From Okeania sp. SIO2C9 (GTDB lineage Bacteria; Cyanobacteriota; Cyanobacteriia; Cyanobacteriales; Microcoleaceae): a stretch of DNA of 34,877 bases. Below, piece after piece: positions 8,173 through 31,200 of the stretch. The stretch is taken from NCBI RefSeq assembly GCF_010672455.1, contig NZ_JAAHGO010000062.1, positions 1 to 34,877 on the forward strand, read 5' to 3'. Position numbers and translations under genes: made by a program. How positions within the stretch are numbered: position 1 is the first letter of the stretch; each line of letters starts with the position of its first letter. Below the pieces are notes generated by a model. It did not search any database and was not told the DNA's origin. It worked only from the letters and a program-made list of their open reading frames with translations.

Positions 8173-8189
8173 AAATAATTACCTCAAAT

Positions 8190-9705
8190 TTTGACTCCGC
8201 TTTTAAGCTAAGTAGATAGACAAAATTTCACCCTCTCTGGAAAATTACTTCAGCTAGAAAGTTTGCCGAAATATTCTCAATTCTCTGTTCTGAGTTTTGA
8301 GAATTTTACAGCTTGAGAATTTGCCGATGTTCATTCTGTCTTGAAATAAGTAGATAGGCAAAATTAAACGACAAGCAAAATCATTTTAGCTAGAAAATTT
8401 ACTGAAATATTCTGAATTCTCTCTTCTAAGTTTTGAGTCTTTTACAGTTTGAGAATTTGCCAATTTTCATTCTGTCTTGAAATAAGTAGATAGGCAGAAT
8501 TTTACTATCTCCGGAAAATCACTTCAGCTAGAAAGTTTGCCGAAATATTCTCAATTCTCTGTTCTGAGTTTTGAGAATTTTCAGTTTGAGAATTTTCCGA
8601 TTTTCATTCTGCCTTTGACTCAGCAGATAAGCAAAATTTCACCTTCTCTGGAAAATCACTTCAGCTAGAAAGTTTGCCGAAATATTCTCAATTCTCTGTT
8701 CTGAGTTTTGAGTATTTTACAGTTTGAGAATTTGCCGATTTTCATTCTGTCTTTAAGTAAGTAGATAGACAAAATTTCACTCTCTCTGGAAATTTACTTC
8801 AGCTAGAAAGTTTGCCGAAATATTCTCAACTCTCCATTCTGAACTTTTGAGTATTTTACAGCTTGAAAATTTGCCGATTTTGATTCTGTCTTTAAGTAAG
8901 TAGATAGACAAAATTTCACTCTCTCTGGAAATTTACTTCAGCTAGAAAGTTTGCCGAAATATTCTCAACTCTCCATTCTGAACTTTTGAGTATTTTACAG
9001 CTTGAAAATTTACCGATTTTGATTCTGTCTTTAAGTAAGCAGATAGGCAAAATTTTACCCTCTGTGAAAAATTACTTCAGCTAGAAAGTTTGCCGAAATC
9101 TATTTAATTCCCAATTCTGAGTTTTGAGTCTTTCACAGTTTGAGAATTTGCCGATTTTGATTCTGCTTTTAAGTAAGTAGATGGGGAAAATTTCATACTC
9201 TCTGGAAAATCACTTCAACTAGAAAGTTTGCCGAAATATTCTGAATTCTCTGTTCTTAATTTTGAATATTTTACAGCTTGAGAATTTGCCGATTTTGATT
9301 CTGTCTTTAAGTAAGTAGATAGGTAAAATTTCACTCTCTGTGAAAAATTACTTCAACTAGAAAATTGACATAAATTTTCTGAATTACCAGTTTGGAGTTT
9401 TGAGTATTTGACAGTTTGATAATTTGCCGATTTTGATTCTGTCTTTAAGTAAGTAGATAGACAAAATTTCACTCTCTGTGAAAAATTACTTCAACTAGAA
9501 AATTGACATAAATTTTCTGAATTACCAGTTTGGAGTTTTGAGTATTTGACAGTTTGATAATTTGCCGATTTTAATTCTGCCTTTAAGTAAGTAGATAGAC
9601 AAAATTTCACCCTCTCTGAAAAATCACTTCAACTAGAAAGTTTGCCGAAATCTATTTAATTTCCAATTCTGAGTTTTGAGTCTTTTACAGCTTGAGAATT
9701 TACCA
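8190..9705. repeat. 138-bp tandem array, 11 units
   Basis: GTAGATAG or close variants recur at 8212, 8350, 8486, 8623, 8761, 8900, 9039, 9177, 9315, 9453 and 9591, a step of 136-139 bp. Each unit has two related halves, one around AGAAAGTTTGCCGAAATATTC and one around GAGAATTTGCCGATTTTCATT, so the unit may be a diverged dimer of about 69 bp. Both strands have frequent stops. It fills the whole gap between rfbC and the split gene. Neighbouring units 5-6 and 9-10 are nearly identical, which suggests recent local duplication. Confidence 0.9.
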
Positions 9706-15039: not shown

Positions 15040-15645
15040 CTCTTTAGAGCTATGTGGGAATAGAGATGAATAAAATTTTTATTTCTGATTTGCTAAAAGC
15101 TTGTCTCTGAATTTTCTCGGCAAAAGCTCCTATTGCTATATTCGCAACAAAAGGGAAGTGAGCAAAAATTCTTATTGCGTATGTGGCAATAGAGATGAAT
15201 TAAGTTTTTATTTCTAATTTGCTAAAAGCTTACCTTTGGATTTTCTCGGCAAAAACTCCTATTGCTATATCCGCAACAAAAGAGAACTGAGCAAAAATTC
15301 CTATTGCGTATACAGCAATAGAGCTGAATCAAATTTTTATTTCTGATTTGCTAAAAACTTGCCTGTGAGTTTTGTAGGTAAAAGCTCCTATTGCTATATC
15401 CGCAATAATAAGGAAACTGAGTCGAAATTCCTATTGCATATGCAGCAATAGAAATGAATTAGATTTCTATTTTGAATTTACGAAAAACTTGCCTGTGAGT
15501 TTTGTAGGTAAAAGCTCCTATTGCGATATTCGCAACAAAAGAGAACTGAGCAAAAATTCCTATTGCGTATACAGCAATATAGATGAATCAAATTTTTATT
15601 TCTGATTTTTAAACCCTTGCCTCTGGATTTTGTCGGTCAAAACTC
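15040..15645. repeat. 129-130-bp tandem array, about 5 units
   Basis: The anchor [AG]CTCCTATTGC recurs at 15126, 15255, 15384 and 15514, a 129-130 bp step, with partial units at both ends. Each unit holds TATTGCTATATTCGCAACAA and, about 45 bp on, TATTGCGTATACAGCAATAG, which is itself palindromic (CTATTGC / GCAATAG). No coding potential. It separates the glycan genes from the peptide export region. Confidence 0.85.
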
Positions 15646-15694: not shown

Positions 15695-15747
15695 TAAAAA
15701 GAAGTCCCCTAGAAAGTGCCACTGGGGAAGTAGACTTCTAGGGGATA
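15695..15747 (-). terminator. Probable rho-independent terminator after the peptide genes
   Basis: On the minus strand TCCCCTAGAAGT pairs with ACTTTCTAGGGGA (one bulge) across 16 bases and is followed by CTTCTTTTT. It lies about 270 bp downstream of the last peptide gene and is the best terminator-like structure for that transcription unit. Confidence 0.55.
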
Positions 15748-15879
15748 CTCTTCTCAATTTTGGGGAGAAGAGGCGATCGCTAACTAAATATCCGTCGCCA
15801 CCTTTTTTTTTGCCCCCGTGCCAGCGATCGGAAAACTTGGAACTGACAAGGGTAGTGAGTAAATTTTTAAGAGTAAATA

Positions 15880-15947
15880 GACTCAACAATTTTGAGTCGA
15901 AAGAATTTTGACAATCAAGTTTTATCAATATTAGTATTCTAACTTTA
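15880..15947 (-). repeat. Conserved 3' motif after peptide gene 1
   Basis: The plus strand TTGAGTCGAAAGAATTTTGA, then CAATCAAGTTTTATCAATATTAGTAT, matches 16486-16550 with few changes. Both copies lie just downstream of one of the two peptide genes, so a whole gene-plus-tail cassette seems to have been duplicated. Confidence 0.75.
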
Positions 15948-16016
15948 GCTAGGTCGATGTAAATCTTAGTTGTGATGCCCTCAACCCTTAACAATAACTA
16001 TTTGTTCCCTTCCTTC

Positions 16017-16202
16017 TCATTGTCTTGTCAAAACGTGTCTGATTGGATGACTTCTTTGAGGTCCTGACCAAGCCCCCCCGGCAACTTGGTCAAGGAACTC
16101 CAGGTCTAGAGAGATTAGTGGCTCCTCTTCTTCCCTCTTTGGAGTGTTCGATGGATTTGAGGTGTGGACCTTTTGTTTTCCTTGTTTTTGAGACTTATGC
16201 AT
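16017..16202 (-). CDS. Double-glycine leader peptide, candidate RiPP/bacteriocin precursor
   Basis: Peptide of 61 residues. The leader has a basic N-terminal part (MHKSQKQGKQKVHTS), an acidic stretch REEEEP, then ISLDLEFLDQVAGG ending at residue 43. That is the classic double-glycine pattern recognised by ABC exporters. The predicted core is 18 residues, AWSGPQRSHPIRHVLTRQ, rich in Arg/His and without Cys. The peptide at 16571-16813 has nearly the same leader and a different core, as expected of a precursor family. Exporter, adaptor and isomerase genes lie upstream on the same strand. No modifying enzyme (LanM, YcaO, radical SAM) is in the window, so an unmodified bacteriocin-like peptide is possible. 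ATG start, weak AAGAGA ribosome site. Confidence 0.75.
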   Translation of the reverse strand: MHKSQKQGKQKVHTSNPSNTPKREEEEPLISLDLEFLDQVAGGAWSGPQRSHPIRHVLTRQ

Positions 16203-16239
16203 TACTGTGAATCTCTTATTATCTTGTTTTGCGAGCGGA

Positions 16240-16269
16240 AGTATAACATAGTCTAGTCTTATTTGTCAG
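16240..16269 (-). promoter_or_regulatory. Candidate promoter of peptide gene 1
   Basis: On the minus strand CTGACA (5 of 6 to TTGACA) is followed after 18 bases by TATACT (5 of 6 to TATAAT), and the -10 ends 38 bases before the ATG. This suggests the second cassette can be transcribed by itself. Confidence 0.45.
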
Positions 16270-16485
16270 AGATTAAACGAAGGGAAATTTCCCTGGATGA
16301 ATTTTGGACTTCAAAGAGCAGATCAAGTAGGCGATCGCTGGGCATAGCAGAATCAATAAGGAAGAAGGAAAAATCTTGCTTTGTCTAAGTTTTAAGCTTT
16401 TTATCTGTCCTAGCCTTTGCTTCGACTGCCATAACATTTTCGTTTTATATATCACTCATGAGGGTCAATAAACCCAACCCAACAT

Positions 16486-16550
16486 TGTTGAGTCGAAAGA
16501 ATTTTGACAATCGAGTTTGATCAATGTTAGTATGTCAAATCGGCTCCTTG
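16486..16550 (-). repeat. Conserved 3' motif after peptide gene 2
   Basis: Contains TTGAGTCGAAAGAATTTTGA and CAATCGAGTTTGATCAATGT, the counterpart of 15880-15947. It starts about 20 bases downstream of the stop of peptide gene 2. It may be a conserved RNA tail or simply part of the duplicated unit. Confidence 0.75.
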
Positions 16551-16570
16551 ATTAATCCAAACAAAAAGCA

Positions 16571-16813
16571 TTAAAGAACCAAATAGGAAGTATTCCATTT
16601 ATAAGGTCTCTGATCTCCTCTAGTCACTCCATTTTGGTGCTTGGATACCCCCACTAACCCTACTTCTGATCTCCCCCCTACTACTTGGTCAAGGAACTCC
16701 AAGTCCAAAGGGATTAGGAGATCCTCTTCTCTCTTTGTGGTGTTCCATGGATTGGAGGTGTGGATTTTTTGTTTTCCTTGGTTTGTTAGTTTTAGTTTTT
16801 GATACTTATGCAT
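16571..16813 (-). CDS. Double-glycine leader peptide, second candidate precursor
   Basis: Peptide of 80 residues from the chosen ATG. An ATG 16 codons upstream (16861) keeps the frame open, but alignment with peptide 1 begins at MHKYQK, so the shorter start is preferred. The leader contains QGKQKIHTSNPWNTTKREED and LIPLDLEFLDQVVGG, ending at residue 47, almost identical to peptide 1 (QGKQKVHTSNPSNTPKREEE, SLDLEFLDQVAGG). The core is 33 residues (RSEVGLVGVSKHQNG, then VTRGDQRPYKWNTSYLVL), no Cys. Both cores share only a G-x-QR element. Conserved leader with hypervariable core is the usual sign of an exported precursor family. Probably exported by the ABC/HlyD genes on the same strand. Confidence 0.72.
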   Translation of the reverse strand: MHKYQKLKLTNQGKQKIHTSNPWNTTKREEDLLIPLDLEFLDQVVGGRSEVGLVGVSKHQNGVTRGDQRPYKWNTSYLVL

Positions 16814-16869
16814 TCTTAAATTGTCTTTTTGTCCTTTTTGTTTTGTTTGATAGAATAACATATCTTGAT

Positions 16870-16898
16870 ATTATAAAATTTTCTTTCCTTGACTAACA
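16870..16898 (-). promoter_or_regulatory. Weak candidate promoter of peptide gene 2
   Basis: A perfect TATAAT (minus strand, 16870-16875) lies 56 bases before the chosen ATG, but the -35 region (TGTTAG) is poor. Next to the upstream gene, AGAAGCGATCGCTTCT (about 16983-16998) is a 16-bp palindrome centred on HIP1. Confidence 0.3.
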
Positions 16899-17006
16899 TC
16901 TTTGACTATATCTCAATTGGAACTTTCAATCATGTTAACCTTGATTATTGTTGATTTTGACAATATTTATTGATTAGATCAAAGAAGCGATCGCTTCTCC
17001 TAAACC

Positions 17007-17213
17007 CTACTCTTTAATTTCCATCTGGTCACGAATAGCTGCTTGAATTTTCTCATCAAAATCAGGATCGTCTAAAGTAGTAATAACTTTTTGATATGGA
17101 TGTCTACTTAATCTGTCTAAATATGCTTGAAGAGCAACTTTATCCTCACGATGTTTAATAAAATATTGTCTCAACTCTTTGTCAGTCATAGCTGAATAAT
17201 TAATTTGAATCAT
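17007..17213 (-). CDS. Small DUF6887-like protein
   Basis: Peptide of 68 residues from the ATG (a TTG one codon earlier is in frame but less likely). It has MTDKELRQYFIKHREDKVAL, QAYLDRLSRHPYQ and TTLDDPDFDEKIQAAIRDQ, which I recognise as the small cyanobacterial family DUF6887. The function is unknown; members are often found beside another small gene. GGGGAG 8 bases before the ATG is a good ribosome site. It lies between the HlyD-type gene and the two peptide genes on the same strand. No leader or GG site, so it is not a precursor. It may be a passenger rather than part of the export system. Confidence 0.75.
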   Translation of the reverse strand: MIQINYSAMTDKELRQYFIKHREDKVALQAYLDRLSRHPYQKVITTLDDPDFDEKIQAAIRDQMEIKE

Positions 17214-17251
17214 CAAATTATCTCCCCATTCAATTTAATTTCAAATTGCTG

Positions 17252-17482
17252 AGGAGTCAGGAGTCAGGAGTTAGGAGAAAGAAAGAATTTGAACTATGTT
17301 CTGAATTCTAAATTCTAAATTCTAATAAAAGCCGATCAATATTCCTACCTCCTCTATAATTCCCATTTATCCTAACTCCTACCTTTACTAGCTGACTGCA
17401 AATTTAGCTAATTCAGAATTCTCAATTCTCAATTCTCAATTCTCAATCCCCAATTCTCAATTCTCAATTCTCAATTCTAATT
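17252..17482. repeat. Three heptamer runs after the HlyD-type gene
   Basis: AGGAGTC at 17252-17277, ATTCTAA at 17305-17325 and ATTCTCA at 17418-17482 (about nine units), all with period 7. The last run reaches into the stop codon of the HlyD-type gene. No gene between. Confidence 0.8.
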
Positions 17483-19699
17483 CACATTAGTCAAACTCTT
17501 AAACTTGCCAGTAAATCTGTTAAAGAATAACTCTAAAACAGTCCGCTTACCAACATTAATATTTGAATTAATTGCCATACCATTCTGCAAACCAATTTCC
17601 AAATCATTCTCATTATCCAGAACAAAAGTTTGCCGTTCTAAATCAATTGTAGTTTCAAAAGAAAAATAAGGTCTTCCTGCTTGTTGGTCTGGTGGAATAG
17701 CATCATCACTAATAGAAATAACTTCCCCAGTTACAGTACCAAATTCATTAGCTGGTAAAGCTTCAACTTGTACTTCTACAGGTACACATTCCACATCACT
17801 TAAACCTAATTTTTCTCGGTTTTCTTTCAATTCCGGACAAGCACATTTTTTACCTGGTTCGCATTCAATAACTTCTCCACCAGCTAACTCTTGCTCGTGA
17901 AAAGGTTCTAATTTTTTCCGCTTATCATTTAAAGCTTTTAATACCAAAGCAATATCTTTATTCTGAATATAAACTACCGCTTCTAAACCTTCATCATCAT
18001 CCAATACTGTCAATAATGGTTCAGTTTGTTGTGCTTCATAAGACGCATCTTCACATCTTTCAGGTCTGATATCATTAGGTTTCAAAACATCATTAATTAC
18101 ATACTGACAAATAGGGTCAGTTTTTATATCTAGAGAAGACTCTTCTTTACTAACAGGTTTTAAATCAAAAATCACTCCAGAAACTGGTGCTTTTAAAACT
18201 TGATTATCGCGAGTTTCCTCTAACTTTTCAATCTGAGCATTAACTTCAGTTAGTCTCTTTTTGTTATCAAGTTGTAGACGAGTAAATTGAGAATCTATTC
18301 TGGCAATTTCCCTTCCTTCATTTTCAGCAATTCTAGCATAAAGTTCCCGGGCCCAAGCATCTCTAGTATTTTTTAACTGTTCTTTAGTTCTATTAATAGA
18401 TACATTTAAACGCTGTTGCTCTAACCTAGCGCGTTGTATTTCTGCTTGACGAGCTTTGACTTCTCCTTCTCTAGCATTAATATCTGATAGGCGAGAATTG
18501 ATTTCTCCTTCACGAGTATTTATTTCTCCTTCTAATGTATTAATATCAGACCTACGAGAATTTACTTCTCCTTCTCTAGCATTAATATCTGCTAACCGAG
18601 AATTTACCTCTCCTAATCTAGCATTTATTTCTCCTTTTCTAGTATTAATTTCTCCTGCCCTTGATTGTATCTGGTCTCGTTGTCTTAAGATTTCACTTTC
18701 CCCACGAAATACTTCTTGTTCCTGACGTTTTTTTTGCAATTCAGCAATTGCTCCTTCTTCTACCAAAGGAGATATTTGATCGAGAATTCCTTCATTAGAA
18801 TCCAACACTTTTTCTGACTTATCTAACTGTCCTTTAGCTAACTCTAATTGTTCTTCAGAATACTTTAATTGCTCTTCAGAATTCTTTAATTGTACCTGAG
18901 TATTATTCAGTTGTTCCCTAGCGAATTTTAGTTGCTCTTCTGCATTTCTTAATTGTTCATTAGCATAAGTTAGCTGTTGCTTACTATTATTTAATTGTTG
19001 TTTGGCAAACTGTAATTGTTGTTTGGCATATTGCAATTGGTCTTGAGCTACTCTTAATTGTTCTCTAGCTGCTTCTTCCTCTTCTTCTGCTTGTTGAAGT
19101 TGTTTTTCTAGCTCTGTAATTTGTAATTCTACAGAAGCTACACGAGAATTATATTCAGCTTTATAGTTTACATATAATCCTTGCAAACTAGGGTCAACAT
19201 TAACAAAACCACCTCTATTTAGGTAAAGCTCATCAATTAGAGCACGATATGTTTGATTTTCCGATATTCTAGTTTGTCGCTCTTGAGCTAATTTTTGTAA
19301 ATCTGGAGGTAAAGCTGTCGGAACTTTACCATTTAGTACTTCTTTATAAAACTGATTTTCTCTTTTTAGAGTGTCTCTTAATTCTTTAGCAGAACCTAAA
19401 TCTGCACTAGGAGCAGTGGGACTAAAAGTTAGTAATGGTTGATTTTTTTCTACGCGATCGCCATTTTCTACATGAAGTCTAACTACATTTCCACTGGTAG
19501 GAGCTTGTACGTCTATGGAACCATCTTTTAATTCTAATTGTCCTGTAGCTGGTACTGCTTGGTCTATCTCTGCAAAGTAAGCCCAAATTATTGCTGAACT
19601 GGTAATTATCATAATCATCCACAGAAATAGCCTAGATAATATGGCTGGTTTTTCTAGAATGACTGGTTGTTCGTTTAATGATGTAGATTGAGTATCCAT
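17477..19699 (-). CDS. HlyD-family secretion adaptor with long coiled coil
   Basis: Protein of 740 residues, longer than typical HlyD (about 480). It should link the inner-membrane ABC exporter to the outer membrane. One membrane helix at about 20-43 follows a short cytoplasmic tail. The lipoyl-like half reads VQAPTSGNVVRLHVENGDRV (64-83) and its return half is LKAPVSGVIFDLKPV. Between them is a long coiled coil with two blocks of 7-residue repeats: twelve QLxxAxx units at 214-297 and twelve R-x-GEIN-x-like units at 347-430. The C-terminal part carries an unusual Cys-rich insertion (VIECEPGKKCACPELKEN, then VECVPV). The final stop lies in a heptamer run. It is on the same strand as the ABC gene, but a broken gene and repeats separate them by about 740 bp. 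Confidence 0.9.
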   Translation of the reverse strand: MDTQSTSLNEQPVILEKPAILSRLFLWMIMIITSSAIIWAYFAEIDQAVPATGQLELKDGSIDVQAPTSGNVVRLHVENGDRVEKNQPLLTFSPTAPSADLGSAKELRDTLKRENQFYKEVLNGKVPTALPPDLQKLAQERQTRISENQTYRALIDELYLNRGGFVNVDPSLQGLYVNYKAEYNSRVASVELQITELEKQLQQAEEEEEAAREQLRVAQDQLQYAKQQLQFAKQQLNNSKQQLTYANEQLRNAEEQLKFAREQLNNTQVQLKNSEEQLKYSEEQLELAKGQLDKSEKVLDSNEGILDQISPLVEEGAIAELQKKRQEQEVFRGESEILRQRDQIQSRAGEINTRKGEINARLGEVNSRLADINAREGEVNSRRSDINTLEGEINTREGEINSRLSDINAREGEVKARQAEIQRARLEQQRLNVSINRTKEQLKNTRDAWARELYARIAENEGREIARIDSQFTRLQLDNKKRLTEVNAQIEKLEETRDNQVLKAPVSGVIFDLKPVSKEESSLDIKTDPICQYVINDVLKPNDIRPERCEDASYEAQQTEPLLTVLDDDEGLEAVVYIQNKDIALVLKALNDKRKKLEPFHEQELAGGEVIECEPGKKCACPELKENREKLGLSDVECVPVEVQVEALPANEFGTVTGEVISISDDAIPPDQQAGRPYFSFETTIDLERQTFVLDNENDLEIGLQNGMAINSNINVGKRTVLELFFNRFTGKFKSLTNVN

Positions 19700-19748
19700 T
19701 TTGTTCTTAATTTTTGTCTATAGTATTTTGTTTGAATTTTCATTTCAC

Positions 19749-19825
19749 AGGAGTCAGGAGACAGGAGTCAGGAGACAGAAGTTTTTTTGAGGAGTCAGGA
19801 GACAGGAGACAGGAAACAGGAGTCA
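19749..19825. repeat. GGAGTCA/GGAGACA heptamer runs
   Basis: Two runs (19749-19778 and 19789-19825) of mixed GGAGTCA and GGAGACA units with period 7, followed by GGGGCAAACGAAACGGCCG, a part-palindromic dispersed repeat. They lie just upstream of the HlyD-type gene on its own strand, where its promoter would be expected. Confidence 0.8.
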
Positions 19826-19921
19826 GTGGTAGGGGCAAACGAAACGGCCGTTTGCCCGTACAGGAGTTAGAATTATGCTTTTTGGTTGGAACGTAGTTTG
19901 AATATAGAATCAGGAGTCAGA

Positions 19922-20304
19922 ATGAAAAGAGAACCTGCTAAAAACTTTCGAGATTTAATAGTTTGGCAAAAAGCACATCAACTTGTTTTAGAAGTCTATG
20001 GTTTTAGCAGCAATTTACCCAAAACAGAAACCTATGGATTAACAAGTCAGTTAAGGAGAGCATCTGTATCAGTACCAGCTAATATCGAAGAAGGAGTCAG
20101 GAGTCAGGAGTTGGTTTTTTGGAAGAAGGAGTTAGAATTATGCTTTTTTTGAATATTGCACAAGGTTCATTAGAAGAAAGTCGGTATTACCTAATTTTGG
20201 CAAATGACCTTGGATATGGAGATACTTCAAAACTTCTACTGGATCTAGAAGAAGTAAGTAAACTATTAGATTCGTATATAAATGCAATTGAAAAACATAG
20301 ATAA
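19922..20304 (+). pseudogene. Four-helix bundle protein (23S rRNA IVP type), broken
   Basis: The first part reads MKREPAKNFRDLIVWQKAHQ to SQLRRASVSVPANIEEG and the second reads FLNIAQGSLEESRYYLILAN to SKLLDSYINAIEKHR. Together these are the small four-helix bundle family associated with 23S rRNA intervening sequences and otherwise common in cyanobacteria. Between them, GGAGTCA heptamers and GGAGTTAGAATTATGC replace the normal linker and shift the frame. The same GGAGTTAGAATTATGCTTTT sequence occurs just before the gene (19863-19882), so the insertion may be copied from there. The likely ribosome site, AGGAGTC five bases before ATG, is itself a heptamer unit. It is on the opposite strand to the export genes. 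Confidence 0.85.
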
Positions 20305-20337
20305 TCTCCTAATTCCTATTCTCTCCTCTCTCCTCCC

Positions 20338-20429
20338 TACTACCTCCTACCTCCTAAAAAAACTCCTGTCTCCTGTCTCCTGTCTCCTGACTCCTTCTTC
20401 CATCTCCTGTCTCCTGTCTCCTGTCTCCT
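20338..20429. repeat. CTACCTC and CTGTCTC heptamer runs
   Basis: CTACCTC at 20338-20356 and CTGTCTC/CTGACTC at 20363-20395 and 20404-20429, all with period 7. They lie between the broken four-helix gene and the stop of the ABC transporter gene. Confidence 0.8.
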
Positions 20430-20436
20430 TCCCCAA

Positions 20437-23400
20437 TTATTGTTGAGCTTCTTGTTGTTGATAGAGACAGAAATAACGACCTTTAACCGCCATTAATTCA
20501 CCATGAGTTCCCTGTTCCACCACCGAACCTTTATCCATCATAATAATAGTATTAGCATTTTTCACTGTAGTTAAACGGTGAGTAATAAAGAACACCGTTG
20601 TATCAGCAAAAGCCTCCGCTAAATTCTCACAAACTTGACGTTCCGAACTGTAATCTAATGCGCTAGTTGCCTCATCTAAAATCAACAATCTTGGATTTTG
20701 TAAAACCGTCCGAGCAATAGCAATTCTTTGCCTTTGTCCCCCTGATAAAGAAGCACCTCTTTCACCCACTATCGTGTTATAACCACTAGGCAAATTCATA
20801 ATAAAATCATGGGCAACTGCTATTTTAGCCGCCCTGACAATTTCATCAGTAGTTGCATCTGGATTTGTCAAAGCAATATTATCTTGAACCGTACCATTAA
20901 ATAGGAGAGTATCTTGTAAAACCACTCCAATTTGACGACGTAAAGAATATAATTCTACTTTTTGAATATCATATCCATCAATAAAAATTCGACCAGAAAG
21001 AGGAGGATATAAACGCTGTAATAACTTCATCAACGTACTCTTTCCAGAACCACTCAAACCAACAATTCCCACAAAATAACCAGCCGGAAATTCCAAATTT
21101 ACATTAGCCAATTGTAAAGGTCCGCTTTGAGTAAATCGGAAAGAAATCTCCTCAAATTTAACACCCCCATTCATCGGCGGCATATCAATATTATTCCGGT
21201 CTTCCTCATCCACTTCTGCCTCCGTATCCAAAACATCTCGAAGTCGTTCAATAGACATTCCCACCTCTTGGAAACTCTGCCAAACACTCACAAAACGCAG
21301 CAACGAACCTGTCACATTACCAGCAATAATTCGGAAAGCAATTAATCCCCCCACCGATAACTGACCATCAATTACTAAATAAGCACCAACCCATAAAAGT
21401 GCCAGTCCGGAAAGTTTATTTAAAAAAGTACTAATAGAACTAGAAGTAGTCTGAGTCAAAACAGTATTAAAACTAGCAGTCATAAACTTCGCATAACGCG
21501 CCGACCATTCCCAACGAGACCGAAGTTCCAAATTCTGAGCTTTAACAGTTTGAACACCATTTAAAACCTCCACTAAATAAGATTGAGAATCAGCATAACG
21601 TTCCGCCTTTTTCCTTAGAAGTCTTCTTACAATTGGCGAATTAATAATAATAATCCCAGTAAAGAAAGGCACCCCTGCCAAAGCTACTGCCGTCATTAAC
21701 GGGTTAAGAGCCAACATCACAGCAATATAAATTACCGAGAATACCGAATCCAAAACCACAGTTAAAGCTGTACCTGTCAGGAAATTCCTAATATTAGCCA
21801 ATTCTCCAATCCTACCCGTCAAATCACCCACCCGACGATTATCAAAATAATTGAGTGGGAGACGGAGTAAATGGTCAATCACCTCAGAGCTAAGTTTGAC
21901 ATCTATACGGTTAGTAGTATCCACAAACAAGAAAGTTCGTAAACCCCCCAACAAAGCCTCAAATAGAGCAACCAATAACATCAACAGACCCAGAACATCC
22001 ATAGCCTCAATGCTACGTTGCCCCATCACTTTATCGATAATAATCATGGTCATCAGGGGGTTGACCAAACCAAATACCTGTACAAAAAATGAAGAAATCA
22101 ACACCTCAATAAAGACAGTGCGATGCTCCATCAAGGAAGGAATAAACCACCAAAAACTAAACTGTTCCTTCTGTTCTGATTTTGGTGCCTGGAGTAATAA
22201 AACTTGTCCAGACTCTCCCCAAATTTCCGCAAACTGGCCTGGTTTGAGGCGAGTTAACCCGAATTCTGGACTGCCAAGAACTATCTCTTGTTCTGTAATG
22301 CTGTAAAGTACGGCAAAATGGTCTTGCCATTGAATTAAAGCTGGAGCCTTCAGACGACCAACCGCTGCTGCCGGAACCTGTACCAGTTGACCAGTTAATC
22401 CCATCATCTGGGCGATCGCTCCACAAGCTTGGAGAGACACCCTACCAGCAGTCCGAATCTGATTGTCCAATACCCGACGAATCACGTCTCGGCGAAACTT
22501 CAGCTTCAGATGTTTAGCCAGCATCTGAAAACAAGCCAAAGCAGCAGGTACTTCTCCCTTACCCCGGAAAATTGGATATTTTATAGATTGAGTATCTTGA
22601 GCAACTGTTGGCTCTGGTGGACGTGCTGGCGCTTGGGGGACCATAGATACATCTAAAGGCACAAGCTCAGTTTTTTGTGCCCCATTTTCGACGGTGGTAT
22701 CTTCAAGTTCACCTCGCTCTTGTTGTTCTGGGAATCCTAAAATTCTTGCTCCTCTGGGTCCCTCAATTTTTAAAGACCTACCCACTCCATCTAAAACCAC
22801 TGGACTACCCGGAGCAAAATCTCCTACTACCCCACTACTAACTAGCCAGATTTTTTCCGACTCTAAGATAGATGCTAATTCCTTAGTTTTTGTATCTCCT
22901 TTTGGTAGGTTTACTACCACAGTTTTTTCGACAACATTTTTAGCCAGTTCTTTCAAATTCGCACTAACTTCAGCTCTTCTAGCAAATTCTTGAGTGAGTA
23001 GTTCAAATACTTCACTCACTGCCGGACATTCTAAAAAGGCTGCCCCAAATTCTGGCTCTGCTTCTAATATTGCCAAGAAGTCTGCGGCTGGTAAAGTCAC
23101 GGCAATTAAATCTGTGGAAGCAAGTGCTGTTTCACAAGGCGTCCCTCGTAACAACCCAGCCCAACCAAGGACTTCTCCAGGCCCTGCCAACTGTAAACTG
23201 ACATGACGTTGCGATCGCTGGTCGTAACCTAATATTCGTGCCTGACCTTGATAGATTATTGCTATCTGGGTGGGCATTTTTTCTCTTTCAAATAGTGGTT
23301 GGCCACTACGGTAACCGAGCAATTGACACTTTCCCACTAATTGAGTTTTCAGTGCATTTTCTGAAAGTCGATTAAATGGTGGTTTTTCTGCCAGAAATTC

Positions 23401-23439
23401 TTGTACTTGGGTTCTTGATATTGTTGAGGAAGTAGCCAT
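20437..23439 (-). CDS. cNMP-binding/C39-like ABC peptide exporter
   Basis: Protein of 1000 residues. Order: a cyclic-nucleotide-binding fold of the Crp type (about 18-133), a linker, a C39-like domain (about 288-410), an ABC membrane domain (about 430-710) and an ATPase domain. Walker A GLSGSGKST is near 793, signature LSGGQRQR near 895, Walker B LLILDEATS near 918 and the H-loop FITHRL near 949. In the C39-like part YPIFRGKGEVPAALACF aligns with the usual VPFVRQxxxxDCGAACL. The catalytic Cys position is Ala or Val, and the oxyanion Gln is Gly. HFAVL (near 373) keeps the His, and GSPEFG replaces DPxxG. It should therefore bind rather than cut substrates, as the HlyB domain does. Likely substrates are the double-glycine peptides nearby. 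The start abuts a heptamer run, with no ribosome site. Confidence 0.9.
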   Translation of the reverse strand: MATSSTISRTQVQEFLAEKPPFNRLSENALKTQLVGKCQLLGYRSGQPLFEREKMPTQIAIIYQGQARILGYDQRSQRHVSLQLAGPGEVLGWAGLLRGTPCETALASTDLIAVTLPAADFLAILEAEPEFGAAFLECPAVSEVFELLTQEFARRAEVSANLKELAKNVVEKTVVVNLPKGDTKTKELASILESEKIWLVSSGVVGDFAPGSPVVLDGVGRSLKIEGPRGARILGFPEQQERGELEDTTVENGAQKTELVPLDVSMVPQAPARPPEPTVAQDTQSIKYPIFRGKGEVPAALACFQMLAKHLKLKFRRDVIRRVLDNQIRTAGRVSLQACGAIAQMMGLTGQLVQVPAAAVGRLKAPALIQWQDHFAVLYSITEQEIVLGSPEFGLTRLKPGQFAEIWGESGQVLLLQAPKSEQKEQFSFWWFIPSLMEHRTVFIEVLISSFFVQVFGLVNPLMTMIIIDKVMGQRSIEAMDVLGLLMLLVALFEALLGGLRTFLFVDTTNRIDVKLSSEVIDHLLRLPLNYFDNRRVGDLTGRIGELANIRNFLTGTALTVVLDSVFSVIYIAVMLALNPLMTAVALAGVPFFTGIIIINSPIVRRLLRKKAERYADSQSYLVEVLNGVQTVKAQNLELRSRWEWSARYAKFMTASFNTVLTQTTSSSISTFLNKLSGLALLWVGAYLVIDGQLSVGGLIAFRIIAGNVTGSLLRFVSVWQSFQEVGMSIERLRDVLDTEAEVDEEDRNNIDMPPMNGGVKFEEISFRFTQSGPLQLANVNLEFPAGYFVGIVGLSGSGKSTLMKLLQRLYPPLSGRIFIDGYDIQKVELYSLRRQIGVVLQDTLLFNGTVQDNIALTNPDATTDEIVRAAKIAVAHDFIMNLPSGYNTIVGERGASLSGGQRQRIAIARTVLQNPRLLILDEATSALDYSSERQVCENLAEAFADTTVFFITHRLTTVKNANTIIMMDKGSVVEQGTHGELMAVKGRYFCLYQQQEAQQ

Positions 23440-23440
23440 G

Positions 23441-23475
23441 TAGAATTTAGAATTTAGAATTCAGAATTTAGAATT
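23441..23475. repeat. AGAATTT heptamers abutting the ABC start codon
   Basis: Five units of AGAATTT/AGAATTC with period 7. They begin one base from the ATG of the ABC exporter gene, so the region where a ribosome site belongs reads TAAATTCTAAATTCTAC on the coding strand. Confidence 0.8.
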
Positions 23476-23529
23476 AGTTTTGGTTTATTTGGTAGTATGG
23501 CGTGCTTTATTTTGATAATAAGCTTGTAG

Positions 23530-23644
23530 TTACCGAAAAATTGTGGCTTAAAGCCTCCTCTTTTCAGGGGATAAAAAGAACAATTTTATTTTGAGTCAAT
23601 CCTATCCGTTTTCCATCAGAGGTAATTGTTAATTGTTAATTATT
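23530..23644. mobile_element. Small repeat element, copy D
   Basis: Reverse orientation relative to copies A-C. Begins TTACCGAAAAATTGTGG, has AAAGCCTCCTCTTTTCAGGG, GAGTCAATCCTATCC and CAGAGGTAATTG, and ends in TTGTTAA heptamers. It lies in the gap between the ABC gene and the isomerase gene. Confidence 0.7.
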
Positions 23645-23679
23645 TAAACCTACTACCTAACACTTTTATTGTATGTTAT

Positions 23680-23807
23680 TTGCCGAATAATTAAGGTTTA
23701 AAGCTTCTCTTTTCTAAGTAGAAATAAGAAAAAATCATCCTTTTAGTCAATCCTCTTCTTTTCAAGGAGAAGTAGTTATTAATTATTAATTATTAATTAT
23801 TAATTAT
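23680..23807. mobile_element. Small repeat element, copy E
   Basis: Begins TTGCCGAATAATTAAGG, has TTTAGTCAATCCTCTTC and the TTTTCAAGGAGAAG half-hairpin, and ends in TTATTAA heptamers. It stops three bases before the stop codon of the isomerase gene. Same orientation as copy D, about 35 bp away. Confidence 0.75.
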
Positions 23808-23810
23808 TTT

Positions 23811-24557
23811 TCATACTTTTACATCTGAACGTAGTGGCTTAAGAGTGCCAATTTTTCCTATTTGTTCTCTGAGCCAATTTTCAAATAGTTCATCTATTAA
23901 AGCGCGTCGCATTGAGTCATCAAGCTGTGCCGGGATAAATTTTTCTAATCTAATAATTACTGTCCATTCTGTTAATGGACGTGGAGCCCAGATTTGACCT
24001 GGCTGACTTACTGATAAAATTTTGCCTATAGCAGGGTGTGGTTGACTTAGAGGTACTGGCCCCAATAATCCTCCCGAGCGCCCTTCTGGACCTTCAGAGT
24101 GTTGACGAGCTGCATCTGCAAAGGTTTGTTCTTCTTCTACTATGCGAAAATACAGTTCGTGAGCTAGACCAGGATTTTTTGTCCTAATCAGGGAATATAC
24201 TACCTGGTCTAAACTGCTCTTACGAGTCATAAAATATCTTTCTACTTGATTACTCCAAGTTTCTTGTTTAAATTTTTCTAGTAATATTGGCCTGATTGCC
24301 ATTTCTACCAATTGTTCTTGGGTCATGTCTTGCTTTTTGAGCCATGCTTGTTTGGTTTCGGGGGAATTTAACTGATATTGGCTCTCAAATTTTTCTACCG
24401 CTGTAGTTTGTTCTGCTTCTGTGCAAGTCAAGTTAGCGATCGCTTGGTCGATTATCACCCCTCTTAAAAAATGAGGCATTAATTGATAACGTTGTAATAA
24501 CGATGGGATATCTTGAGCTTGCAATAATTTATCGCCGATTTGAAACAGTCCTGTCAT
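23811..24557 (-). CDS. Parvulin-type peptidyl-prolyl isomerase (PpiC/SurA-like)
   Basis: Protein of 248 residues. An N-terminal helical part (about 1-115, LLQRYQLMPHFLRGVIIDQA) resembles the SurA-type chaperone segment. A parvulin domain follows at about 125-210, with AHELYFRIVEEEQTFADAAR, SEGPEGRSGGLLGPVPLSQ and PGQIWAPRPLTEWTVIIRLE. There is no signal peptide, so it should act in the cytoplasm, before export, unlike periplasmic SurA. It is first in the row isomerase, ABC exporter, HlyD adaptor; this grouping recurs in cyanobacterial genomes near double-glycine peptides, to my recollection. TTGGAGATATAAAAAATG gives a fair ribosome site. Its last codons meet repeat copy E, so the natural C-terminus could have been altered. 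Confidence 0.88.
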   Translation of the reverse strand: MTGLFQIGDKLLQAQDIPSLLQRYQLMPHFLRGVIIDQAIANLTCTEAEQTTAVEKFESQYQLNSPETKQAWLKKQDMTQEQLVEMAIRPILLEKFKQETWSNQVERYFMTRKSSLDQVVYSLIRTKNPGLAHELYFRIVEEEQTFADAARQHSEGPEGRSGGLLGPVPLSQPHPAIGKILSVSQPGQIWAPRPLTEWTVIIRLEKFIPAQLDDSMRRALIDELFENWLREQIGKIGTLKPLRSDVKV

Positions 24558-28117: not shown

Positions 28118-28284
28118 TATAGCAATATGATTTTAGTTGTGAGATATTGGAGACTTTTGTTCTAGGGAATAGGGAATAGATATGGATATGGAGGGAAGAA
28201 ACGAATACATAAGAATCAGAAAACTGCTATATTCTATGCTTTAAAGGAAACCTCAATTCTCACATCTGATTCCTGATTGCTATA
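28118..28284. mobile_element. MITE-like element at the 3' end of the large fusion gene
   Basis: TATAGCAAT at the left and ATTGCTATA at the right, 167 bp apart. It is the inverted copy of the element at 12688-12860. The last eight codons and the stop of the 1825-residue protein lie inside it. Confidence 0.75.
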
Positions 28285-31200
28285 TTCGGAAGTGAAAAAT
28301 CACAACAAGACAAAACTGTTAAATCAAGATCGTCGGCAAGAAAAGCAGCAATACTTTGTCTAACTGCGGAGTTACTATTACTACAAACATTCCCTTTCAA
28401 ATACACAATTAAATCTTTGACATACTCACAATATTTTTCCAATTCTCCAACTTCCTGAAAATTTAGAGGTCTAGCAAATAGAAAATTCAGAAAATCAGTA
28501 AAAATCCATTTTGGCAAAACAGCTTTACGATAATTTATTGGTAACTGAAAAGCAAACCGATAAAGCAGAAATACTAAAAGATTTTGCCAGAGATTTTTTG
28601 TGGAAAAATTTTTCTGTAGATTAACAATAAAATCTTGTTCGGAAGCAGTTAAAACTTCATTTTTTATCTCACTATTGAGCAGAAGTTTATAAATTTCACC
28701 TATTTCAGCTTGATAAAAATATTTCAATTGTTCATTTGACAGACTCAACAACTTTTCAGCGAGTTGGCGACGTAATTGGCGAAGATTATTTAAAACCGAC
28801 TCATCACCAGGAAAGCGACGATATTGTTCGACCAAATTTGGCAGTTGAGAAAAGTCTTTTTTGAGCAAAAATCTTAATTTTTGTCTGACAGTTTCTTTCA
28901 CCTCTGCAGCTAAAAAACTATAAAGGGGATTCTCCAAGATTTTCTGATAAAACCTTTGATAATCTTGAGGATTTTTCCCAGAAGTAAGATTAATTTGAGT
29001 TTGTTGGCGGGGATGAATACGAAGTTGAGATAAAGGCTTATCCACAAATCCAATTTTGTAATTTCCCATAATCCTGAACCACATATCTATATCTAATACT
29101 TGAGTCAAACTAGAGTCAAAAAGTCCGATTTTTTCAAAGACAGTTTTAGGAATTAATACTGTTGTTGGTTCCCCAATTTTATTCAGGCGATATTTCATTA
29201 AATTAGGGTCTAATAATAAATCTTTTCCTGACTGAATAGTTTTCAAATTTGACCAATCTTTGTGTAAATCTTGAGTACCACGATAAGCAGCTATACAAGT
29301 AGAATTATTTTCTGCACCAGGTTCTAAAATTACGCGACGGCGAGAAAATACTAAGCCTATTTCTGAATCTTCTTCTGCTATTTTGACAAGCTCTTCAATA
29401 CAGTTTTTTTCGAGCAAGTCATCCTGGAACAAGAATTTAATATATTTGCCTCTAGCTTGGGAAATACAGAAGTTTAAATTTCCCACTAAGCCATAATTTT
29501 GATGGCAAATAATCCGAAATTCTATTTGTGGATTTTCCGATTGTAATGATTTTGTTATTTCGAGGGTTTTGTCAGTGGAATTATCATCAGAAATTATGAT
29601 TTCTAGGTTGGAGTAAGTTTGGGAAAGGGCACTATTAATTGCAGCTCTGATAAAATTTTCTCCGTTGTAAGTAGGAATACAAATACTAACAAGTGGAGAT
29701 TTCTTCCTTGGAGAAGACTGAGATAATTTTGTGCCTGGAATATTAGTAAAGTTTTCCGTAATTTGAGCAATATATTCAAGGCGAGTATTGATTTTTTTAC
29801 CCATAGCTTCTGGGCTGAGTAATGACTTAATATCTTCAGCAGCTTTTAATCCAATTTTTTGAGCTTGGTCAGAATTATTAAACACATATTTCATCAAATT
29901 GGCGCAATGTTCGATGTTAGGATTTGCCCAAATATCTCCTTGTTTATATGGTCCGTAATTATCAGCGATCGCTACTTTTTCATATTCGACTAAAAAGCTA
30001 TTTCCTACATTCATAAATTCAGTATTTGATGAATAGCCAGTGGCAATAACTGGTTTGCCATAAAACATTGCTTCTGCCATTGTTAAGCCAAAGCCTTCGG
30101 CGCGATGTAGAGATACATAACAATTGCAATGGTAAAGCAAGGCATTGATTTTTTCTTTGGATAAATATCCATCTATATGTTTAATATTTGAGGAGTCTCC
30201 GATACTATTTATTAGTCGTGATTTATCTCTAGGAAATTTTTGAGAATTGGATGATTTTATCAGGAGCAAAACATCTGGGTTTGAGTTTCCAAATGCTTTT
30301 TTAAATGCCGTAATTGTGGCGAGTGGATTTTTTCGTTGGAGGCGACTAAAAAAGTCAAAGATAAATAGAAAGATAAATTTATTTGTTGGTAAACCTAGTT
30401 GTTTTCTACTAATTTTCGGAATTGGTAGAGAAATGCTGGGCATCATTTTTATTACAGGAATAGATGACACCATTGAGATAGATTCGGCACAGTAATTACT
30501 GTAAGTCCAAATTTCGTGAAATGGTGTAAATGCTGTTATCCATTCTGGAGGAAATGTCGGAAGTTCCCATGCCCAAAAACCGATGTTATATTTATTGGTG
30601 AAATATTGTCTTACAGTTGGTTTTTTGAGAAAGGTTTTGACTTCATTGGCGTTGACTTGAAATAGGTTGATTGGATGTGGGTTTTCTTGGGTAAATTTTT
30701 GGTAGGTTTTGTCGGAGTTTCTATGGGGAGTGCTGATAATGTTGTTGATAACAAAGGGAATGTTTGTGGTTTCTACTGCTCGAAGTGTTGCTCTTACTCC
30801 TTCTCCTATTCCTAATTCTCCTTTAACAAAACCTGCAATATTAATTCCCAATTTTTGAGGAGTTGTTGGAGTTGATAAAAGTTCGTTTATCTCTGTAAGT
30901 TTTTCTGGTTTTGGGGAATTTTCTTCTTTCCTTCTCACTGCTGCTTTTTCCTGGTATAAAATTTGAGTTTTGTCTGAGAGTTGTTGAGATTTTGGGGTAG
31001 ATTTTGGGAGATTGAAAGAATTTACTCCTTGATTTATACCTCCTACTTTTCCCTGGTGTAAAAATTCAGTTTTGTCTGAGATTTGTTGAGGTTTTTGAGT
31101 AGATTTTGGGAGATTGAGATAAATTTTTTCTTTCTTCTTGCCTCCTGGTTCTTGTTGCTGAAAAAATTCAGTTTTGTCTGAGAGTTGTTGAGGTTTTTGA

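Follow-up and report, generated by a model that had tools for sequence, protein, structure and literature searches.

The contig NZ_JAAHGO010000062.1 of Okeania sp. SIO2C9 (assembly GCF_010672455.1), whose full 34,877 nt are referred to here as the window, carries two short genes, designated pep1 and pep2, downstream of and on the same strand as three genes for a parvulin-type isomerase, an ATP-binding cassette (ABC) exporter and an HlyD-type adaptor (the trio; see Table 1). Both short genes are predicted to encode precursor peptides with a double-glycine (GG) leader, and it is probable that they have been wrongly paired with the neighbouring exporter, the trio itself being ordinary. The interpretation favoured here, with somewhat better than even confidence, regards pep1 and pep2 as orphan GG precursors which are processed in trans and belong to a fast-evolving family that is lineage-restricted in Okeania, with the neighbouring trio representing an old type I secretion system of the HlyB type, more likely to export large RTX-type proteins. 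On this view, a peptidase-containing ABC exporter from another part of the genome would recognise the leader, cut it after Gly-Gly and export the short cationic core, and a putative promoter in a block past each stop codon, aimed back into the peptide gene, would provide antisense RNA control.

The pep1 product has 61 aa, with a leader of 43 aa followed by a core of 18 aa (AWSGPQRSHPIRHVLTRQ), and that of pep2 has 80 aa (leader of 47 aa, core of 33 aa), an alternative in-frame ATG at 16861 giving a pep2 product of 96 aa. GG leaders carry hydrophobic residues at positions -4, -7 and -12 before the two glycines, and these positions are occupied by V-4, L-7 and L-12 in both leaders, which end in LDLEFLDQV(A/V)GG. 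The two leaders are identical in 34 of 48 alignment columns, and at the DNA level 109 of 126 aligned leader bases are the same, against 55 of 132 (42%) over the core and 3' untranslated region (UTR). When the pep1 leader was scored against the 999 six-frame segments of the window with at least 20 residues, it reached 148 on pep2 and, itself aside, no more than 50 elsewhere. The first-pass annotation had described two short genes with an almost identical leader and with cores that were unrelated, 18 and 33 residues long and free of Cys, and the open reading frames (ORFs), leaders, coordinates and absence of Cys were all confirmed. Both cores are hydrophilic and cationic, with calculated average masses, if unmodified, of about 2126 Da (pep1) and 3745 Da (pep2). 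Neither peptide matched Pfam or NCBIfam at E<=1, and, as regards a lanthipeptide nature, for which Cys in the core and a modification enzyme would be expected, no such enzyme was recognised among the listed ORFs of the window, which were judged by eye and not by a hidden Markov model scan for such enzymes.

The host genome (10.88 Mb in 317 contigs, labelled G000) was compared with the other genomes of the genus, five in all. A homologue was matched by pep2 in the sister genome G297 (L032:13482-13673, E 1.2e-9), where it is the only such gene at the corresponding site and the trio upstream of it is 92-97% identical to that of the window. The 'two-peptide' reading of the first-pass annotation is thus not supported. 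The core of this homologue (VMRRTEIERWWKLC) is unrelated to the window cores and, unlike them, contains Cys. A profile built from the three genes gave strong matches in the five genus genomes to those three only, for which the E-values are circular, and no fourth strong homologue was found there (next best E 1.6). A profile of six leaders, two of them from G308, recovered a further leader in G369 (E 3.4e-11); both genomes belong to the neighbouring genus g5, which includes Okeania- and Trichodesmium-named genomes. This match and the sister-genome homologue support the earlier assignment of the genes as GG precursors, and judged by sequence pep1 and pep2 appear to be real GG-leader peptide genes of an already known kind. 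In a wider search with pep1 at E<=1, matches were obtained in 50 of the 388 genomes of the order, the host included. At the 29 non-own loci returned, a GG-leader ORF was present at the match in four (G297, G268, G044 and G308) and was not detected by pattern in the other 25. No close pep1 relatives were found by degenerate patterns in the genome contigs, and plasmid records gave no match.

The lack of mutual similarity between the cores, together with the presence of the genes in only two of the five genus genomes, could also be expected of decaying pseudogenes or spurious ORFs retaining an old leader. This is considered quite unlikely, as synonymous codon changes were most numerous in the leader frame out of six frames in all three pairwise comparisons (8, 9 and 7, against 4, 6 and 4 in the next frame), and as the leader and a block past the stop codon are kept while the stretch between them is not. 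It should be noted that the codon alignment was made in the leader frame, which is therefore stop-free by construction, so that only the synonymous counts carry weight.

The proposal of the first-pass annotation that the neighbouring trio processes the peptides was not supported. The HlyD adaptor, the 1000-residue ABC protein and the parvulin were all confirmed upstream on the minus strand as annotated, the parvulin having no hydrophobic N-terminus by hydropathy and no apparent signal peptide. However, the C39-like domain of the ABC protein lacks the catalytic Cys of peptidase-containing ABC transporters: Ala299 aligns with the Cys within the SDCGAAS stretch of a paralogue and Ser390 with the paralogue's Asp, His374 being retained. 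The same column contained Cys in none of 41 rows (the window and 40 relatives). It was also without Cys in all 75 aligned members of a second sample, for which the best 80 of 206 confirmed loci from a parvulin search were taken and whose genomes overlap with the 41-row set; the residues were Ala (49), Ser (13), Gly (10), Val (2) and Thr (1), with one row which looks misaligned. In the His column of these 75, Ser was present in 58 and His in three. As a control, the Cys was kept in 21 of 21 loci of a second type of trio, these comprising the host's own copy, that of G305 and 19 picked from the higher-scoring rows of an exporter search. Against PF03412 the window domain scored 45.7 bits, compared with 123.6-143.1 bits for the four other C39 domains of the genome. 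On sequence grounds, leader cleavage by the window domain is not to be expected.

The trio itself is widespread. At E<=1e-100 the ABC protein matched 371 of the 388 order genomes, a count which takes in paralogues, and the fetched loci were therefore checked: of 41 order-wide loci selected through the ABC protein, 38 contained the full trio, two of the remaining three being short contigs, and among the 80 parvulin-derived loci the ABC gene was found in 77, the HlyD gene in 72 and the complete trio in 72. The best NCBIfam model of the window ABC protein was type_I_sec_HlyB (TIGR01846) at 720.6 bits, marginally under the cut-off of 725.55, and the combination of a Cys-less C39-like domain with an HlyD partner is that of HlyB-type systems. 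By architecture and spread, the trio matches group I of Wang, Fewer and Sivonen (2011), described as a long-type ABC protein (nucleotide-binding, C39 and ABC domains) with HlyD and a SurA/rotamase, for which 57 clusters, reportedly in all genomes but one, contained 20 precursors or 0.35 per cluster (PMC3140520). In that paper the group I domain is treated as a C39 peptidase and the main text never uses the word 'inactive', whereas the relatives examined here are without the Cys. The same layout of cNMP-binding, C39 and ABC domains is described for HetC of Nostoc PCC 7120, which is an active Cys protease (PMC10986499), unlike the window protein. ABC proteins with Cys-less C39-like domains have been tied to large RTX cargo in HlyB-type type I secretion (PMC8277102), and Sll1180/Sll1181 of Synechocystis are reported to act in S-layer export (PMC11594277). 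The window trio resembles these systems in its Cys-less C39-like domain, of the kind linked to large RTX cargo, and its HlyD partner, but has a cNMP domain and a parvulin in addition. As to the large RTX cargo with a C-terminal signal expected of an HlyB-type exporter, RTX repeat matches numbered at least 176 in the host genome (150 of 345 candidates scored), and one RTX ORF, a 673-aa frame, lies on the window's own contig, which would be circumstantial evidence for such a cargo of the trio.

Window-type trios were rarely found beside GG-leader ORFs. With a first, narrower pattern such ORFs occurred at three of 42 window-type loci (the window, G297 and one unrelated), and with a slightly wider pattern at four of 80, of which only that of G297 was homologous to pep1 and pep2. 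With the wider pattern, at least one was present at 11 of the 21 second-trio loci, own genome included. The difference between 4/80 and 11/21 (Fisher p = 2e-6) is only indicative, as the loci are related; mean locus lengths were similar for the two sets (17.3 and 17.8 kb, respectively). The trio might nevertheless be the dedicated exporter of both peptides, acting without cleavage or with a separate protease, as the peptide genes lie on its strand 0.6-1.3 kb downstream of HlyD and the arrangement is repeated in the sister genome. The absence of the Cys from all 41 rows and all 75 aligned loci and the frequency of the trio without GG-leader ORFs make this unlikely. In addition, a gene for a DUF6887 protein, overlooked in the first-pass annotation, intervenes between HlyD and pep2 with gaps of 261 and 194 nt; any link of this gene to the peptides is putative at most. 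The check suggested with that annotation, namely whether homologues of the leaders always sit beside the trio, gave a divided result. The strong homologues adjoin the trio in both genomes having them, which amounts to one shared locus, and the weaker leader relatives in G308, G369 and G268 had no window-type trio in the stretches fetched, two of these contigs being shorter than 6 kb.

Processing in trans, as favoured here, would require an active exporter elsewhere in the genome. PF03412 detected five C39 domains, and the four beyond the window show the Cys, His and Asp. The highest C39 score belonged to a 907-aa cNMP-C39-ABC protein on contig C301, which has its own HlyD and parvulin (the second trio) and is 37% identical to the window ABC protein over 731 aligned positions; the best NCBIfam model of this active-looking paralogue is also type_I_sec_HlyB, but at 659.5 bits. 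The second trio resembles group II of Wang, Fewer and Sivonen (2011), with the same parts and 3.78 precursors per cluster (PMC3140520). A comparable cyanobacterial case of small proteins with a GG secretion motif is that of EbfG1-4 in Synechococcus elongatus, for the efficient secretion of which the Cys of PteB is needed (PMC4997328). PteB has this Cys and the window ABC protein does not, and EbfG proteins in their mature form are larger, at 6-7 kDa, and reportedly without homology to other cyanobacterial proteins. The second trio on C301 also has a peptide of its own (L118:1758, plus strand; MANINISDLHPAGADLFLDSESYLNDLTEQEMTNTLGG), with a hydrophobic core (ILPLVYIGIGVYVGYTIWG) and a leader type which recurs beside the exporter in several other genomes.

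Among the five genus genomes, the peptides and an unbroken second-trio exporter coincide in G000 and G297. In G250 and G323 this exporter was not above paralogue level (38% identity), and in G305 its ABC gene (L124, 2861-6330) is split into two frames of 574 and 587 codons, by decay or by assembly error. Several observations weigh against the reading of orphan precursors processed in trans, or against any one exporter as its agent. The co-occurrence is five of five only if the split G305 copy is counted as lost, a pattern expected by chance once in ten, and four of five if it is an assembly error. Within genus g5, related leaders in G308 and G369 are not accompanied by a close second-trio exporter (best 53%, and 52% partial), and in G153 and G329 the exporter is present (90-91%) but leaders of this kind are not; co-distribution was accordingly rejected as proof. 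The leaders at second-trio loci are mostly of other types, such as MANI..SDL.PAG..LF, which leaves room for a different cognate exporter, and a search by pattern up to about 9 kb from the host's three remaining exporters detected no GG-leader ORF. The retention of His374 means that the active site of the window domain is not wholly decayed, and this domain may still bind substrate, in which case the neighbour could export without cleavage; that the strong homologues lie next to the trio in each genome which has them also counts on this side. Given the mismatch in genus g5 and the other leader types at second-trio loci, processing in trans is proposed here without naming a specific exporter.

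Downstream of the peptide genes, a 49-nt block past each stop codon was found to be conserved between pep1, pep2 and the G297 gene (pairwise identities of 44/49, 42/49 and 44/49, or 86-90%), while the core and 3' UTR ahead of it showed 35-45% identity in the same pairs. Read on the opposite strand, the block contains TTGACA-N18-TAGTAT at pep1 and pep2 and TTGACA-N18-TATTAT in G297, with the -10 box 37, 52 or 79 nt past the stop in the three copies and pointing into the gene. By eye, conservation stops directly after the -10 box, as expected of a promoter, and the 34 aligned bases adjoining the block at its opposite end show 62-71% identity. A 30-nt pattern of the block with up to three mismatches matched only beside these three genes in 61 genomes of the family. 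A general promoter scan returned 11 sites against 4.5 expected, so the pattern alone is weak and it is the conservation which forms the argument; the three copies are homologous and therefore not independent. On the sense strand, the scan placed a promoter-like site ending at 16240 ahead of pep1 and found none shortly ahead of pep2.

Other explanations of the block were examined and rejected. A dispersed repeat does not agree with three copies in 61 family genomes. A terminator would account for the hairpins at pep1 and pep2, but none was seen by eye in G297, and the promoter layout is present in all three. For a coding gene on the antisense strand, the antisense frames had fewer synonymous changes and were interrupted by stops in two or more of the three comparisons. 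An antisense promoter as a general feature of GG-leader genes was excluded by its absence from eight of nine other GG loci scanned, the ninth being weak. The block is thus most simply taken as a putative promoter directed back at the peptide gene, with predicted antisense starts near 15944 and 16540 for pep1 and pep2, and may allow antisense RNA control.

It is tentatively suggested that each gene forms a unit in which the leader and a convergent antisense promoter are conserved and the core changes freely, and that the antisense RNA would gate a rapidly diversifying secreted peptide, applying the logic of type I toxin-antitoxin loci to a secreted signal or weapon. The same block, conserved and with the promoter layout into the gene in all three copies, could instead belong to a locus of type I toxin-antitoxin style proper, where the peptide would be made only when the convergent antisense RNA is low and would act on the producer or its kin and not as a secreted signal. 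This is regarded as very doubtful. Hydrophobic membrane peptides are the norm among type I toxins, and pep1 and pep2 differ from these in their hydrophilic, cationic cores and in a GG leader that points to export; no plus-strand terminator was found in 15700-17480, and the homology of the three block copies reduces their weight for this explanation as well. The literature retrieved on antisense RNA with double-glycine leaders in cyanobacteria gave msoT1/msoA1 of Microcystis as its sole match, a type I toxin-antitoxin pair which is likewise a cyanobacterial small gene with an antisense RNA (PMC12390103), that RNA being only predicted in the present case; no wider claim on the published record is made. 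Of the ten loci predicted in that paper, the antisense RNA is described as overlapping the coding sequence and 3' UTR in six. Among the matches listed for precursor peptides of Okeania, none named Okeania.

Table 1. Features of the pep1-pep2 region and the neighbouring trio in the window
Feature	Position	Strand	Basis
pep1 conserved 3' block, predicted convergent antisense promoter	15890..15938	+	TTGACA (15908-15913) N18 TAGTAT (15932-15937)
pep1, GG-leader precursor peptide	16017..16202	-	ORF and leader motif, homology to pep2 and L032:13482-13673, synonymous-change test
pep2 conserved 3' block, predicted convergent antisense promoter	16486..16534	+	TTGACA (16504-16509) N18 TAGTAT (16528-16533)
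pep2, GG-leader precursor peptide	16571..16813	-	ORF and leader motif, leader homology, synonymous-change test
DUF6887 protein, 69 aa	17007..17216	-	Pfam PF21826, 70.3 bits against a cut-off of 24.2
HlyD-type adaptor, 740 aa, repeat-rich	17477..19699	-	PF13437 above cut-off, TIGR01843 below cut-off
ABC exporter, 1000 aa	20437..23439	-	cNMP-binding, C39-like (Ala299 at catalytic Cys position), membrane and ATPase domains
Parvulin-type peptidyl-prolyl isomerase, 248 aa	23811..24557	-	PF00639; TIGR04500 at 38.7 bits, below the cut-off of 180

Further GG-leader genes were encountered during the comparison. On a 4.8 kb contig of G308 (L034, 2000-1463, minus strand) three GG-leader ORFs lie in a row with the short cores KLESGDL, VLLDEPTVGLDL and LTDLGGAPWIDPGGAQN, and no exporter was found there among ORFs of at least 180 aa. 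In G044 (L035), three GG-leader ORFs at 8459, 6500 and 16385 on the minus strand include two with Cys in the core, and a C39 exporter frame retaining ECGAAC is located at the contig edge. Another GG-leader gene, with a good-looking ribosome site, is present in four of the five genus genomes (contig C261 of the host, L168:8010, plus; L169:8013, plus; L170:9785, minus; L171:9739, minus), no dedicated search having been made in the fifth. Its cores are nearly pure Arg and vary in length (GSRRGRRGR, RRRRR, RRQIRRR and RRRRRRR), the codons being mostly CGT.

Repeats are also a feature of the window. The HlyD gene contains tandem repeats, and its product is 740 aa long in the window and 726 aa in G297. 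Two tandem arrays were detected, at 8188-9701 (11 copies of a 138-nt unit) and at 15059-15645 (4.6 copies of a 129-nt unit), and G297 has many overlapping matches to the latter downstream of its peptide gene. In the gene for a glycosyltransferase-like protein of 1825 aa (28260-33737, minus strand), a repeat of 102 nt (34 residues) occurs about 20 times, at 30944-32947; the G297 counterpart of 875 aa begins near a contig edge and is without the repeats.

The relatives examined here of this common exporter, known as that of the 'group I bacteriocin' clusters, have no C39 Cys, and a peptide should therefore not be called cargo cleaved by it on proximity alone. With its leader and promoter-like 3' block kept and its core wholly changing, this small family would make antisense control of secreted peptides testable, and it is this conserved antisense promoter-like block which is considered the part most worth testing.

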